DNA from: Donghicola mangrovi
Lineage (GTDB): Bacteria > Pseudomonadota > Alphaproteobacteria > Rhodobacterales > Rhodobacteraceae
Direction: 5' to 3'
DNA: 64,000 nt
Assembly (NCBI RefSeq): GCF_013377535.1
Contig: NZ_JABCJE010000004.1
Span: 1-64,000, forward strand
Shown here piece after piece: positions 4,351-22,520 of the stretch. Position numbers and translations under genes: made by a program. How positions within the stretch are numbered: position 1 is the first letter of the stretch; every line of letters begins with the position of its first letter. The notes below the pieces were generated by a model. The model searched no databases, had not been told where the DNA came from, and worked only from the letters and a program-made list of their open reading frames with translations.

Positions 4351-5153
4351 GCGCTAAAGCAGAAATCACCGACAGTCACTGCCATCTGGATTTCCCCGAT
4401 TTCGACGGTGAGCTGGACCAGATCGTCGAACGCGCCCTTGCGGCCGGGGTCACCCGGATGGTGTCGATTTGCACCAAACTCCATCAGGAGCCCCGCGTTC
4501 GCCAGATCGCTGAAACCTATCCGCAGGTGTTCTACACCTTTGGCGTCCACCCCATGAGCGCGGCCGAACACCCCGCCGTGACCGTGGACCAGCTGCTAGA
4601 GCTGACCAAGCACCCGAAAATGGTGGGCATCGGCGAGACCGGTCTGGACTACTACTACACCGCCGAAAGCGCGCAGGTGCAGCAGGACAGCCTGCGCATC
4701 CACATCGCCGCGGCCCGTCAGAGCGGCCTGCCCCTGATCATCCACGCCCGTTCGGCGGACGATGACATGGCCCGCATACTGACCGAGGAATACAAGAACG
4801 GCGCCTATAACTGCGTGATGCACTGCTTCTCCAGCTCTGCGGAACTGGGCCGTGCCGCGCTGGATCTGGGCTTCTATCTGTCGATGTCTGGCATCGCGGC
4901 CTTCCCCAAGAGCCAAGAGCTGCGCGATATCTTTGCCTCTGCCCCGCTGGACCGGATTTTGCTGGAAACCGACAGCCCCTATCTGGCGCCGCCGCCCTAT
5001 CGCGGCAAACGCAACGAGCCGTCCTATACCGTACACACCGCCCAAAAAGGCGCCGATGTGTTCGGCCTGAGCTATGAAGAATTCGCCGCCGCGACGCAGG
5101 CCAATTTCGAGCGCCTGTTCTCCAAGGTCGTGGCCTATCAAGAGGCCGCGTAA
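4347..5153 (+). CDS. tatD: TatD family metal-dependent hydrolase
   Basis: A 268-residue TIM-barrel metallohydrolase of the TatD/YcfH family (3'-5' exonuclease or DNA-repair nuclease activity is reported for members). The metal-binding HxH is in DSHCHLDF (residues 9-16), IGETGLDYY supplies the conserved Glu, and LLETDSPYLAP the C-terminal Asp. It overlaps the holB stop by four bases and is followed without spacing by an MBL-fold gene. The tmk-holB-tatD-MBL order is frequent in proteobacteria. The substrate in vivo is not known from sequence. Confidence 0.93.
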   Translation: MSAKAEITDSHCHLDFPDFDGELDQIVERALAAGVTRMVSICTKLHQEPRVRQIAETYPQVFYTFGVHPMSAAEHPAVTVDQLLELTKHPKMVGIGETGLDYYYTAESAQVQQDSLRIHIAAARQSGLPLIIHARSADDDMARILTEEYKNGAYNCVMHCFSSSAELGRAALDLGFYLSMSGIAAFPKSQELRDIFASAPLDRILLETDSPYLAPPPYRGKRNEPSYTVHTAQKGADVFGLSYEEFAAATQANFERLFSKVVAYQEAA

Positions 5154-6881: not shown

Positions 6882-7261
6882 TCGCGGGTCTCAATCGGTA
6901 GCGCAGCCTCTCGCCACGCGGTGAAACCGCCGCGAAGGGACGCGCATTTCAGCCCCATCCGCTGCGCCACCTGCGTCGCCAGCAGCGACCGCCAGCCAGA
7001 GGCGCAGTAGAACACAAACGTCTTGTCCTCAGCAAAATAGGGTTTGTGATAGGGGCTTTCCGGGTCGATCCAGAATTCCAGCATCCCGCGCGGGGCGTGC
7101 CGCGCCCCTTGCACCAGACCGTCCCGCTGTAATTCACGCACATCGCGGATATCGACGAAAACGGTCCCCTCGTCCGCCAGCAAATCCGCTGCCTCGGCCG
7201 GTGTCACCGACCGCACCTGCGCCTCGGCCTCGGCCATAAGTTCTTTGATCCCGACGGGCAT
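6878..7261 (-). CDS. Rhodanese-like domain protein
   Basis: A 127-residue single-domain rhodanese. The active-site loop CASGWR carries the sulfur-accepting Cys at its first position, and VFVDIRDVRE near residue 35 matches the rhodanese start motif. I chose the ATG at 7261 because GGGAGG precedes it; a longer upstream reading lacks a ribosome-binding site. Such proteins transfer sulfane sulfur between thiol carriers. It is divergent from a TauE/SafE-type exporter, which suggests a shared role in sulfur-compound handling (inference). Confidence 0.9.
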   Translation of the reverse strand: MPVGIKELMAEAEAQVRSVTPAEAADLLADEGTVFVDIRDVRELQRDGLVQGARHAPRGMLEFWIDPESPYHKPYFAEDKTFVFYCASGWRSLLATQVAQRMGLKCASLRGGFTAWREAALPIETRD

Positions 7262-17357: not shown

Positions 17358-19778
17358 TTAGCTATGCAGGCCCAGATTTTCGGCGATCCGCCAGATGCGC
17401 CACTGATCGTGGGGCATATGGCTCTGGACCAGACCAAAGGCGCGGAACGCATCGTGCACCGCATTCGAGAACGCCGGAACCGAACCCACGTTCGGGCTTT
17501 CGCCCACACCCTTGGCGCCGATCGGGTGATGCGGGCTGGGGGTGACGGTGTGGTCGGTGGTGTAGTGCGGCGTTTCCCATGCGGTCGGCACGAAGAAGTC
17601 CATCAGGGTCGCGGTCTTGTGGTTGCCCATGTCGTCATAGGCAATCTCCTGACCCATCGCGATGGCATAGCCCTCGGTTGCGCCGCCGTGCACCTGCCCT
17701 TCGATGATCATCGGGTTGATGCGGGTGCCGCAATCGTCCAGCGCATAGAAGGTCCGGACCTTGTGCTCGCCGGTGTCCACGTCGATCTCCATGACGCAGA
17801 TATAGGCGCCAAAGGGATAGGTCATGTTCGGCGGGTCATAGTAGCTGACGGCCTCGAGGCCCGGCTCGACGCCGGGGATCGCCTGGTTATAGGACGCAAA
17901 GGCGATTTCCTTCATCGTCTTGAACCGTTCCGGCGCGCCCTTGACCACAAAGCGGTCGACCTCGAATTCCACGTCGTCGTCGTGAACCTCCAGCAGGTAG
18001 GCCGCGATCATCTGGGCCTTGGCGCGGATTTTACGGGCGGCCATAGCGGTGGCAGCCCCCGCAACCGGCGTCGAGCGTGAGCCATAGGTCCCCAGACCAT
18101 AGGGGGCGGTGTCGGTGTCGCCCTCTTCTAGCGTGATGTCATCGGCGGGGATGCCGATTTCACTGGCGATGATCTGGGCAAAGGTCGTGGCGTGCCCCTG
18201 CCCTTGGCTGATGGTGCCCAGACGGGCGATCGCCGATCCGGTCGGGTGAATGCGGATTTCGCAGCTGTCGAACATCCCCAAGCCAAGGATATCGCAGTTC
18301 TTGACCGGCCCTGCGCCCACGATCTCGGTAAAGTGGGTCAGACCGATACCAAGGAGCTTGCGGGTTTTGCCTGCTTTGAAATCCTCGATCCGCTGGGCCT
18401 GTTCGGCGCGCAGACCGTCATAGTCCACGGCCTTCAGGGCCTTGTCCCACGCGGTGTGGTAATCGCCCGAGTCATATTCCCAGCCCAATGCCGACTGATA
18501 GGGGAACTGGTCCTTGCGGATAAAGTTGATGCGCCGCAGTTCAGCCGCGTCCATCCCCAGCTTGATCGCGAGAACCTCGATCATGCGTTCGATGAAATAG
18601 GCAGCCTCGGTCACGCGGAAGGAACAGCGATACGCCACGCCGCCCGGTGCCTTGTTGGTATAGACGCCGTCCACGGACAGGAACGCGACGGGGATGTCAT
18701 AGGACCCCGTGCAGATGTTCATGAAACCGGCGGGGAACTTGGTCGGGTCCGCGCAGGCGTCAAAGCCGCCGTGATCCGCAGTGGTGTGGCACCACAGGCC
18801 GGTGATCTTGCCCTCTTTGGTGGCGCTGATCTTGCCGTGCATCCAGTAGTCACGGGCAAAGGCGGTGGACATCAGGTTGTCCATCCGGCTTTCGACCCAC
18901 TTCACCGGCTTGCCTGTCACGATCGAGGCCACGATCGCGCAGATATAGCCGGGATAGACGCCGACCTTGTTGCCGAAACCGCCGCCGATATCGGGGCTGA
19001 TGACGCGGATGTTGTGCTCCGCAATCCCCGAGATCAGCGAGGCCACGGTGCGCACCGCGTGCGGCGCCTGAAACGTGCCCCACAGGGTCAGCTTGCCCGT
19101 CACCTTGTCCATCGAGGCCACGGCCCCGCAGGTTTCCAACGGCATCGGGTGCGTGCGGTGGTAATAGACCATTTCGTCCGCGACCACGTCGGCCTCGGCC
19201 AGAACCTTTTCGGTGGCGTCCTTGTCGCCGACTTCCCAAGTGAAGATGTGGTTGTGATGGCGGCGGGGGCCATGGGCACCCTCGGTCTTGCCTGCCAGAT
19301 CTTCGCGCAGGACGGGGGCATCGGGTTCCATCGCCTTGAAGGGATCGGTGACGACTGGCAGTTCCTCGTAGTCAACCTCGACCGCGGCGACGCCATCGGC
19401 GGCCGCATAGCGGTCCTTGGCCACCACAAAGGCCACTTCCTGCCCTTGGAACAGCACTTTGCCGTCCGCCAGAACCATCTGCTTGTCACCGGCCAGCGTG
19501 GGCATCCAGTGCAGGCCAAGCGGCTCCAGATCCTTGGCCGTGATCACCGCCAGCACGCCCGGAATGGCCAGCGCGGCCTCGGCGTTGATCGACGCCACCC
19601 GCGCATGGGCATAGGGGGAACGCACAAAGTCGCCCACCAGCATACCGTCCAGCTTGATGTCGTCCACATAGTTGCCGCGCCCCTGGGTAAAGCGCACATC
19701 CTCGACCCGCTTGCGCGAGCAGCCCATGCCTTTCAGCTTGGCGCTGCGGTCCTCGGGGGATTGAACCTCGTCTTTCAT
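17358..19778 (-). CDS. coxL: Aerobic carbon monoxide dehydrogenase large subunit, form I
   Basis: An 806-residue molybdenum hydroxylase subunit that oxidises CO to CO2 at a Mo-Cu centre. The form I signature AYRCSFR is intact, with the copper-bridging Cys at residue 385 (codon TGT at 18624-18626; Cys388 in Oligotropha). Cofactor motifs GGGFGNK, GQGHATT and IGAKGVGE are present. The ATG at 19778 overlaps the coxS stop (ATGA). The motif separates it from form II/xanthine-dehydrogenase relatives, which carry AYRGAGR. A true CO oxidation function is therefore well supported by sequence. Confidence 0.97.
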
Positions 19779-20272
19779 TCCGCGGCCTCCTTGACAGCGT
19801 TCAGTTGCGCCGCCGAGGCAAGGATCGCCTTGACGATATTCTGGTAGCCGGTGCAGCGGCACAGGTTCCCCGCCATGCCGAAGCGGACTTCCTCTTCGGT
19901 GGGGTTCGGGTTTTCCTGCAGCAGACGGTGCGCGCGGGTGATCATGCCCGGCGTACAGAACCCGCACTGAAGGCCGTGGTGCTCGCGGAACATCTCTTGA
20001 ATGACCCCGAGCGAGCCATCGGCATTCACCAGACCTTCGACGGTTGTGATGTCCGACCCGTTGGCCTGCGCCACAAAGACGGTGCAGGATTTCACCGACT
20101 TGCCGTTCAGGTCCACGGTGCAGGCGCCGCAATGGCTGGTTTCACAGCCGATATGGGGGCCGGTGATTTTCAGGTTCTCGCGCAGAAAGTGGATCAGCAG
20201 GGTGCGCGGTTCGGCCAGCCCTTCGACCTCTTCGCCGTTGACGGTCAGTTTGACGTGCATCTTGTTGCTCAT
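19775..20272 (-). CDS. coxS: Carbon monoxide dehydrogenase small (iron-sulfur) subunit
   Basis: A 165-residue subunit carrying two [2Fe-2S] clusters that relay electrons from the Mo centre to FAD. The plant-ferredoxin-type ligands are Cys43, Cys48, Cys51 and Cys63. The second cluster uses Cys103, Cys106, Cys138 and Cys140 (CGFCTPGM and CRCTGY). Length is typical. It follows coxM by 11 bp and overlaps coxL by four. Confidence 0.97.
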
Positions 20273-20283
20273 GGTGACGCTCC

Positions 20284-21117
20284 TCAGGACTTGCGCGACA
20301 GGGCGCTGTCGATGGCGCGGCGCAGGATCACGGCCGCAACGTGGCGTTTAAAGGGGATGGGCCCGCGCATATCCTCTTGCGGATCGATCGAGGCCAGCAT
20401 CGCCGCGACACAGCCGTCGATGTCCCCGTTGGCAAGGGCTTCGCTGGCCTCGGCGGAATAAACGGGGGTGTCCGACAGGTTGGTCATGGCCACCGATGCG
20501 GTGCCGTTGCCGATCAGCACAGCGGCGGCGGCGGTGGCATAGTCCCCGATCTTTCGCTTCTGTTTGACATAGGCTTGGCCGGTCCCTGCAGCGGGCACCG
20601 GAATGGTGATGCGGGTCAGAATCTCGTCATCGCTGCGCGAGGTAAAATAGGCCGCCTGATAGAAATCCCGCGCGGGCACATCGCGGGTGCCATCGGGACC
20701 AAACAGGGTAAAGGTCGCATCCAGACACTGCATCAAGCCGGGCATATCGTTCCCCGGATCGCCGTTCGCCACGTTCCCGCCAATGGTGCCCACATAACGC
20801 ACCTGCGGGTCCGCAATCTGCAGCGCCGCCTCGCGGATCACGGGGATCGCTTTGGCCAGCCCTTCGTGGGTGATCAGCTCGTGCTGGGTGACCATCGCCC
20901 CAAGGGTCACCGTGCTGGCCCCCAGTTCGATGCCCTTCAGCTCTCCGATGTCCTGAAGGTCGATCACATGGGCCAGTTCGGCCATGCGCAGCTTCATCAT
21001 GGGGATCAGGCTGTGACCGCCCGCGACCACGCGCGCTTCGTCCCCGTGCTCTAGTAGAATGCCGATCGCCGACGACAGATCGGCGGGCCGATGGTACTCG
21101 AACCCTGCTGGTATCAT
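20284..21117 (-). CDS. coxM: Carbon monoxide dehydrogenase medium (FAD) subunit
   Basis: A 277-residue flavoprotein subunit of the xanthine dehydrogenase FAD-binding family. The two FAD motifs are [13 protein letters not shown] (from residue 32) and TIGGN (111-115). It is the first gene of the structural operon. The ATG at 21117 follows GGGAGGAG; longer readings have no such site. The promoter region upstream contains three phased direct repeats (21220-21270). Confidence 0.96.
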
Positions 21118-21219
21118 GCTTCTCTCCTCCCTTCGGCAAAGATGCCGTTCCTCGAAGTCGGAGGTTAGAATGCGCCGCCAAGCCGCCAATCAGCGCCTAG
21201 CGAATGTCGTTGTTTTCTT

Positions 21220-21270
21220 CATGAAATACGGGGGCGCTGCACGAAATGCGAAAGGCGCGCACGAAATGCG
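21220..21270. promoter_or_regulatory. Three 20-bp-phased direct repeats upstream of coxM
   Basis: The 11-mer CAYGAAATRCG occurs at 21220, 21240 and 21260, exactly 20 bp apart. Copies 2 and 3 are identical (CACGAAATGCG) and copy 1 differs at two positions. A weaker fourth match starts at 21200. They lie 103-153 bp before the coxM start and immediately after the coxC stop. LytTR regulators bind direct repeats spaced about two helical turns, and the adjacent CoxC has a LytTR domain, so this is the likely operator of the cox operon. Confidence 0.7.
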
Positions 21271-21273
21271 CCT

Positions 21274-22395
21274 TCACATCCCCAAGAGTTCGCGAACCTC
21301 TTGCAGGCGCGATCGGGCGACAGGAACCATGGTCAGGGACTCGGTGTCGCGGAACAGGCAAAAGCCGGTGTCCTTTGTCCGCTGGAAGTCCGCCACGAAC
21401 GCCGGATTGACCAGCCAAGATCGGTGAACGCGCAAGAACCCCAAGGGTTCCAGCCGCCGGTCGGCGTCGGAAATGGACCACGAGCAGAAGATCTTGTCGG
21501 GCCCGCGATAGACCACGGTATAGTGTCCCTCGGCGCGGATGGCGGCGATGTCCGCGGACTCCGCATACTGGGTGCGCCCCTCGCGGTCATAGGGCACGCG
21601 GACCGAGGCCACGGGCGCAGCAGTCGGCGCCTCTGGGGCGTCCACCACCAAGGGCATCTCGGGCAGCGCAATCTCTTGCTCTTGCGGCAAGGGGACAAAG
21701 AACGACACCCCGCTCAGCAAAGACACCCCGCTGATCACAAAGGACGACACCGCCACCATCATCGCCAGTGTCGCGTTGCTCAGGGCGGGTCCCGTGGTCA
21801 CGGACACATCATCCAGATAGAAATCCGTCCCCAGCATTGCGATGAAATGCATCGACACGACGGCGACCGCAAAACACAGGGTCCCCAGCAGGATGTTCCC
21901 CCGCGTCCGCGCGCCATACCCCACCCAGATCGCCAGATTGGACAACAAGAGCGAGGCCACCAGCGCCACCACCACGCCCATCGGGCGGAACACCGGTCCG
22001 CAAATCTCCATCCCGGACATGCCGACATAATGCATGGCGGCGATCCCCGCCCCCATGATCACCCCCGCGATGGTCATGGTCACTGGCGTGCGGCGCGGGA
22101 AATGCAGCACCAGCAGCGCCAATCCCACCATCAGGATCGCCACCAGCACCGACACCAGCGTCGTCAGCCCGTCATAGTAAAACGCCACCGGCAGCTGCAG
22201 CCCCAGCATCGCCACAAAGTGCATGGACCAGATGCCGCCCCCCAGCACAAAGGCCGCCACCGCCACCAGAAACTTCCTGCGGCCCACATCCAATCTGGAT
22301 GCCCCCCGCAACAAGGACATGCCGCTGAAGCCTGCAAATAGCGCAATCGCGAACGCCGCCGCGACCATCCATAGATCGTGAGTGAATGCTAGCAA
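21274..22395 (-). CDS. coxC: CoxC-type MHYT-LytTR membrane regulator
   Basis: A 373-residue protein (from TTG at 22395). The N-terminal ~230 residues are a seven-helix MHYT sensor with three repeat motifs MHFVAM, MHYVGM and MHFIAM, which are proposed to bind a metal and sense diatomic gases. The C-terminal ~100 residues form a LytTR DNA-binding domain (IRAEGHYTVVY, FLRVHRSWLVN). This architecture matches CoxC/CoxH of Oligotropha. The TTG is chosen because GAGGA precedes it and the reading then begins at the first helix; an ATG at 22509 would give a 411-residue form. It probably activates coxM through the phased repeats. Confidence 0.86.
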   Translation of the reverse strand: MLAFTHDLWMVAAAFAIALFAGFSGMSLLRGASRLDVGRRKFLVAVAAFVLGGGIWSMHFVAMLGLQLPVAFYYDGLTTLVSVLVAILMVGLALLVLHFPRRTPVTMTIAGVIMGAGIAAMHYVGMSGMEICGPVFRPMGVVVALVASLLLSNLAIWVGYGARTRGNILLGTLCFAVAVVSMHFIAMLGTDFYLDDVSVTTGPALSNATLAMMVAVSSFVISGVSLLSGVSFFVPLPQEQEIALPEMPLVVDAPEAPTAAPVASVRVPYDREGRTQYAESADIAAIRAEGHYTVVYRGPDKIFCSWSISDADRRLEPLGFLRVHRSWLVNPAFVADFQRTKDTGFCLFRDTESLTMVPVARSRLQEVRELLGM

Positions 22396-22520
22396 TCGGT
22401 TTTCCTCGCTCCCCGAAGGGAACACTAGCACAGAACCCAACTCCCGCAACGGGCCCGCAAACCCGCTGACACAAAACGCAAAAATCCGCGAATCCCTCGG
22501 GGGGTTCACGGGCGCTCTAA

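Follow-up and report, generated by a model that had tools for sequence, protein, structure and literature searches.

In Afipia carboxidovorans, purified C-CoxC binds the coxB promoter (PcoxB) via three direct repeats of the form TTNNNGCN, spaced by 18-21 bp or about two helical turns, which overlap the predicted -35 box (PMC11347149). This operator was defined by mutation in an experiment published in 2024, the third unit being needed, and in an E. coli reporter CoxC acted as a repressor, with CO relieving both repression and binding and with copper being required (PMC11347149). RcoM, a single-component activator with a haem sensor domain, targets CO dehydrogenase genes, and its motif in Paraburkholderia xenovorans, as quoted in the same paper, is a triplet of TTCNNGCA with 12-13 bp spacers (PMC11347149). 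RcoM and most LytTR regulators activate from sites upstream of -35, and the canonical LytTR site is a pair of 9-bp direct repeats 10-13 bp apart (PMC11347149). Among titles and abstracts in the open literature we found none on an operator at coxM in the Rhodobacteraceae, and among the papers found there for MHYT with LytTR only PMC11347149 treats the regulator.

We analysed a stretch of 64,000 nucleotides from Donghicola mangrovi (contig NZ_JABCJE010000004.1, positions 1 to 64,000; “the window”), which carries a cox cluster on the minus strand. The coxC gene (21274..22395, minus strand) encodes an MHYT-LytTR regulator, with Pfam scores of 101.3 bits for MHYT and 49 bits for LytTR, both above the cut-off; its translation contains three M-H-F/Y motifs and has no Pfam match beyond these two domains, and a search by sequence (E 0.01) revealed no solved relative of its LytTR domain. 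The start of coxC is probably the TTG at 22395; the open frame extends to a GTG at 22509, and in most CoxC matches from the family homology starts near residue 35-40 of this longer frame. A YqeY-like gene, not coxB, lies upstream of coxC. Downstream, coxM (20284..21117, minus strand; Pfam FAD_binding_5 and CO_deh_flav_C) encodes the medium subunit of CO dehydrogenase and is followed by coxS for the small subunit (19775..20272, minus strand), an open frame that owes its name to its position and to tblastn matches of 68-93% beside coxM in family loci, and by coxL for the large subunit (17358..19778, minus strand; TIGR02416 1385.9 bits, cut-off 991.15), whose start near 19778 is likewise a probable one within an open frame extending to 20132. 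After coxMSL come genes for an AAA ATPase and for CoxE-like, XdhC/CoxI-like and CoxG-like proteins.

Between coxC and coxM, where the initial annotation had correctly placed it, lies an array of direct repeats that begins 3 bp after the coxC stop codon. On the minus strand, unit A (21258..21270; CGCATTTCGTGCG, core TTCGTGCG) scores 20.8 bits with a motif trained on family loci (20.7 with the window left out), unit B (21238..21250; CGCATTTCGTGCA, core TTCGTGCA) scores 23.0 bits (22.9 with the window left out) and is the best 13-mer of the window, and unit C (21218..21230; CGTATTTCATGAA, core TTCATGAA) scores 13.8 bits, the best third unit among 93 family loci. The three lie 153, 133 and 113 bp, respectively, before the coxM ATG at 21117, so that the array lies in the promoter region of the cox genes, 113-153 bp upstream of coxM. 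Read on the plus strand, they appear as CATGAAATACG at 21220-21230 and as CACGAAATGCG at 21240-21250 and 21260-21270, which confirms the three copies of CAYGAAATRCG at steps of exactly 20 bp that had been noticed earlier. The weaker fourth repeat proposed at the same time can be traced in its best register (21197..21209, minus strand; CGACATTCGCTAG), 21 bp beyond unit C, but is marginal at -3.9 bits, with only the CG and TTCG letters kept.

What is special here is the array and not the single copy. Matches to the 11-mer with up to two mismatches occurred in the window at chance level (55 versus 56.7 expected), and across the genome single units were equally uninformative, with 707 matches at up to two mismatches and 411 for a backwards control. 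The array was the sole place in the window where any 11-mer recurred three times at one equal lag, in a scan allowing lags of 18-23 bp and asking that neighbours be identical at 9 or more of the 11 positions, and the 4.3-Mb genome has a single occurrence of the pattern GCATTTCGTG N8-12 GCATTTCGTG. The looser TTCRTG N13-15 TTCRTG was found at 14 genome places, as against 2 for its backwards control; two of the 14 are the window array, overlapping into three in a row, and no other overlapping pairs exist among them. Under the family motif the pair of the array scored 43.7 bits and the 12 other places 11.1 bits at most, and we therefore claim no further CoxC targets in this genome. One of these pairs, CGCAATTCATGCA / ACTGATTCATGCA, 20 bp apart (11.1 bits; L156:2784-2816, C56 near 49283), is flanked on one side by an operon for an ABC-type transporter and on the other by a gene whose product has a sugar-binding regulator domain (PF04198); it is probably a site of that regulator, not of CoxC.

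To follow the array through the family, we searched for CoxC in 394 Rhodobacteraceae genomes, drawn from a larger group. Matches were found in 98, counting the window's own genome and one (G192) that matched in the MHYT part only and whose locus was left out, and the surroundings of coxC were taken from the 96 others. In 92 of these coxM lay directly behind coxC, giving 93 loci with the window. The repeats, which the initial annotation had expected at orthologous cox promoters, were present throughout: in 93/93 loci a pair of 13-bp units with the consensus CGCANTTCGTGCA precedes coxM on the coxM strand, spaced by 20 bp in 48 loci and by 21 bp in 45 (17-24 bp allowed). The lowest pair score was 12.3 bits (L127) and the other 92 exceeded 15, as compared with at most 6.5 bits on the opposite strand and at most 5.2 bits on shuffles, which were first-order Markov resamplings and not exact dinucleotide permutations. 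Leave-one-out training recovered the same place in all 93 loci, and the information per unit was 18.4 bits, versus 4.7-5.0 bits when the motif was retrained on six shuffled sets. The units are conserved across these loci and most spacer positions are not. No second pair above 15 bits was found in 1.1 Mb of family loci with both strands counted, and hence there is no second array upstream of coxC.

Downstream of the pair, at 20-21 bp, a third unit is traceable but degenerate, with a median score of -7.2 bits versus -21 at control distances. What the family strictly keeps is thus two strong units plus this degenerate third, rather than the four repeats first suggested. A strict pattern of three TTC..G or TT...GC units recovered the array in only 9 of the 93 loci, because the third unit is degenerate in most loci under the motif model. 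The choice between 20 and 21 bp tracks the CoxC tree, with 10 changes versus about 31 on shuffled labels (91 rows); the spacing is slow to change and perhaps tuned to the protein. In the same tree, the window's CoxC groups with those of other genera (L032-L037), to which it is about 60% identical at best, while the CoxC of a same-genus relative (G039, locus L093) is 47% identical and falls in another clade. Several relatives are on plasmids, including ones from Roseivivax, Marivivens and Pseudosulfitobacter, and the cox cluster may have moved horizontally.

The array belongs to coxM, as indicated by its steadier distance to that gene and by the pair staying at coxM when coxC is far away. In 89/93 loci the distance from unit A to the coxM start downstream is 121-160 bp (median 131), and the coxC-coxM gap ranges from 108 to 360 bp. 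These distances are less sure for six loci, since the coxM start was assigned as GTG or TTG (L087, L109, L110, L117, L118) or was missing, any start codon lying more than 8 codons away from the expected position (L047). In four family genomes coxC is separated from coxM, by 3.8, ~14 and ~30 kb (G007, G328 and G279) or by its position on another contig (G296); all four have the pair upstream of coxM, at 40.4-44.6 bits, and none has a pair beside coxC. Outside the family, the pair was also found with coxM in G656, where 11 kb lie between coxC and coxM. In 23 of the 93 loci (L067, L075, L077 and 20 others) the coxC frame runs through unit A, and there an operator unit therefore also codes for the CoxC C-terminus. 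Within the leader we looked for palindromes or an RNA hairpin and set both aside: inverted repeats were found in 16/93 loci versus a mean of 11 and a maximum of 19 on shuffles, and folding was near chance (mean z -0.7).

The array also goes with the presence of CoxC. The coxM gene occurs in 101 of the 394 family genomes, five of which lack a CoxC match; in two of these (G102, G354) coxM runs up against a contig end, which leaves them outside the testable set. The remaining three comprise G008 and G083, with no pair before coxM, and G109, which has a degraded pair of one good and one poor unit (15.6 bits; L131:1908), no MHYT gene in its genome and perhaps an operator decaying after the loss of coxC. 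In a sample of 385 genomes from the class, 15 genomes outside the family matched CoxC. Ten did so over both domains, and each of these carries the pair upstream of coxM, at 7.3-38.9 bits; the other five matched in the MHYT part only (G407, G408, G514, G594, G737) and were left out of the count. With the addition of G462, in which coxC is in pieces at two contig ends and the pair scores 37.1 bits, the pair was present in 11/11 CoxC genomes outside the family, weakly so in G575 (7.3 bits); for G724 and G462, where the start of coxM could not be placed, the scan took in the whole locus. A second coxM-like gene in G575, a genome that has CoxC, carries no pair (-19.5 bits). Two genomes with coxM and neither a LytTR nor an MHYT gene (G696, G728) have no pair. 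Across the testable genomes with coxM and without CoxC, the pair was accordingly absent in four of five and degraded in the fifth. This set is small, and with G008 and G728 only 82-83% complete it is the weak point of the link to CoxC. G008 has a LytTR gene and still lacks the pair, and a LytTR gene as such therefore does not bring the array.

Turning back to Afipia, the highest score of the family motif within 13 kb of pHCG3 fell on the PcoxB region (23.7 bits, L185:4178). We identify this place with the published PcoxB because, reckoned from the 626-bp intergenic gap, the coxB start of the paper falls on an in-frame ATG at 4450; the published 282-bp probe would then include the array. Second in rank (19.1 bits, L185:7218) was a place between coxC and coxM, matching the location in the window. 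There, in pHCG3 of A. carboxidovorans OM5 (NC_015689.1, L185:7218-7270), three units, at 7218, 7238 and 7258, stand at exact 20-bp steps, 155 bp before coxM. Neither this coxC-coxM array nor a PcoxM is mentioned in the main text of PMC11347149, in which coxM appears in gene lists only.

Taken together, these data make it very probable that the array, conserved as it is, anchored at coxM and associated with CoxC, serves as the operator of CoxC at the coxMSL promoter and is switched by CO. For direct binding by CoxC, for CO as the signal and for a part played by copper, we rely on the Afipia precedent. CoxC, encoded just upstream of the array, would sit in the membrane, and the LytTR domains of several CoxC molecules would lie side by side on cores of the TTCGTGCA type, along one face of the DNA, two helical turns apart; bound CoxC would hold the promoter at the membrane. 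CO arriving at a copper-bearing MHYT domain would then change how CoxC grips the array, thereby switching coxMSL. The LytTR operator that the initial annotation had proposed is supported by the repeats across the family, their anchoring to coxM and their link with CoxC, and has a direct published precedent in the CoxC LytTR domain on the PcoxB repeats of Afipia (PMC11347149), although the CO-relieved repression of that precedent had not been named. Several findings count against the reading: most family loci have a degenerate version of the third unit, on which the Afipia operator depends; the Afipia CoxC is only ~32% identical to that of the window, over 90% of the latter; the genomes with coxM and without CoxC are few, and one of them, G109, keeps a degraded pair; the pair is weak in G575, which has CoxC; and the genome encodes three further LytTR proteins.

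If the array is the CoxC operator, the sign of its action can be considered separately. By orthology with Afipia the default would be repression without CO, and CO-relieved repression is, by a small measure, what we expect; activation is a serious candidate, somewhat short of an even prospect. The latter may be put as CoxC acting as a CO-dependent activator, or switching from repressor to activator, and aiding RNA polymerase from upstream of -35, a possibility we regard as appreciable and still doubtful. It is the distal units that the family keeps strictly, the promoter-nearest unit being degenerate, which suits an activator. Activator-dependent promoters commonly lack a consensus sigma-70 promoter, and a consensus scan found none in the region of the window; likewise, we found no convincing conserved sigma-70 hexamers downstream of the array in the family loci. 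A de novo motif search downstream returned a CCGCATGC-like element 55-57 bp from unit B in 27/93 loci, with a log-likelihood of 76 versus 25-29 on three shuffles that were given fewer restarts and iterations. This weak hint of what is possibly a -10 box would set units A and B near -84 and -64. Against activation, the element is weak, the shuffle control had fewer restarts, and the window has its best match 75 bp from unit B instead of 56; moreover, the only CoxC studied is a repressor, in the E. coli reporter (PMC11347149). The window departs from the family in other respects as well, its array lying about one repeat farther from coxM (153 bp versus a median of 131) and its third unit being strong. 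We tentatively suggest, as a minority reading, that CoxC in this family activates coxMSL or switches sign, tethered to the membrane, from two strong upstream units. If CoxC did activate, a membrane-bound gas sensor would be using almost the same operator code as RcoM, a soluble haem sensor, and the Afipia coxC-coxM array would be a second, unstudied promoter under CoxC control.

It is improbable, by contrast, that the array is bound by another regulator, such as one of the three other LytTR proteins, instead of CoxC. The genes for these proteins lie elsewhere in the genome, two side by side at C23:272757-273940 and one at C45:204406, and the RcoM consensus is nearly the same as the core, so that more than one LytTR protein might read the array. 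Yet the pair goes with MHYT-LytTR genes in 97 family genomes and 11 outside, the LytTR gene of G008 comes with neither an MHYT gene nor the pair, and in Afipia it is CoxC that binds this motif (PMC11347149). That the repeats are non-regulatory, arising by chance, from the coding constraint of the coxC 3' end or from a leader or terminator structure, is very improbable: coding constraint could contribute in the 23 loci where unit A lies wholly within the coxC frame, but unit A is outside that frame in the other 70, conservation falls on the units and not on most of the spacer, and the pair persists at coxM where coxC is distant; no terminator was found in this region of the window.

Roseobacter-like bacteria matter for marine CO consumption, and the plasmid relatives named above suggest that the family studied here is theirs. 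If CoxC is indeed the regulator, the array would represent a coxMSL operator that some 95 genera of a single family have retained and that is tied to one sensor, and the characterised MHYT-LytTR system would be extended from a single carboxydotroph to a whole family. The sites named here make the sign of regulation, repression or activation, testable, and they indicate a second site in Afipia.

Compared with the systems described so far, the kind of operator is already known from Afipia, and what is new is its place at coxM, the sharp family consensus and the Afipia counterpart between coxC and coxM. As in the window, the operator at Afipia PcoxB has a cognate MHYT-LytTR regulator in the cox cluster and cox genes as its target; it lies before coxB, whereas that of the window lies before coxM. 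When set against TTNNNGCN, TTCGTGCG and TTCGTGCA fit fully and TTCATGAA departs at the C, with steps of 20 and 20 bp, and the window is more regular than PcoxB, its spacing being exactly 20 bp and its units nearer to one consensus. Repression was demonstrated in Afipia and for the window would follow by orthology. Relative to the RcoM triplet, unit B is an exact fit and the other two are one letter off, with 12-bp spacers that together with the 8-bp core make up the 20-bp step, and CO dehydrogenase genes are the target in both cases; RcoM, however, is soluble with a PAS/haem sensor, whereas the neighbouring regulator in the window is a membrane-bound MHYT-LytTR protein. Finally, the window shares with canonical LytTR sites the same-face direct repeats at a period of about 20 bp, with 11 bp between 9-bp units, and differs from the canonical pair in having three units, the third of them degenerate in most family loci, and a core of the CO-regulator type.
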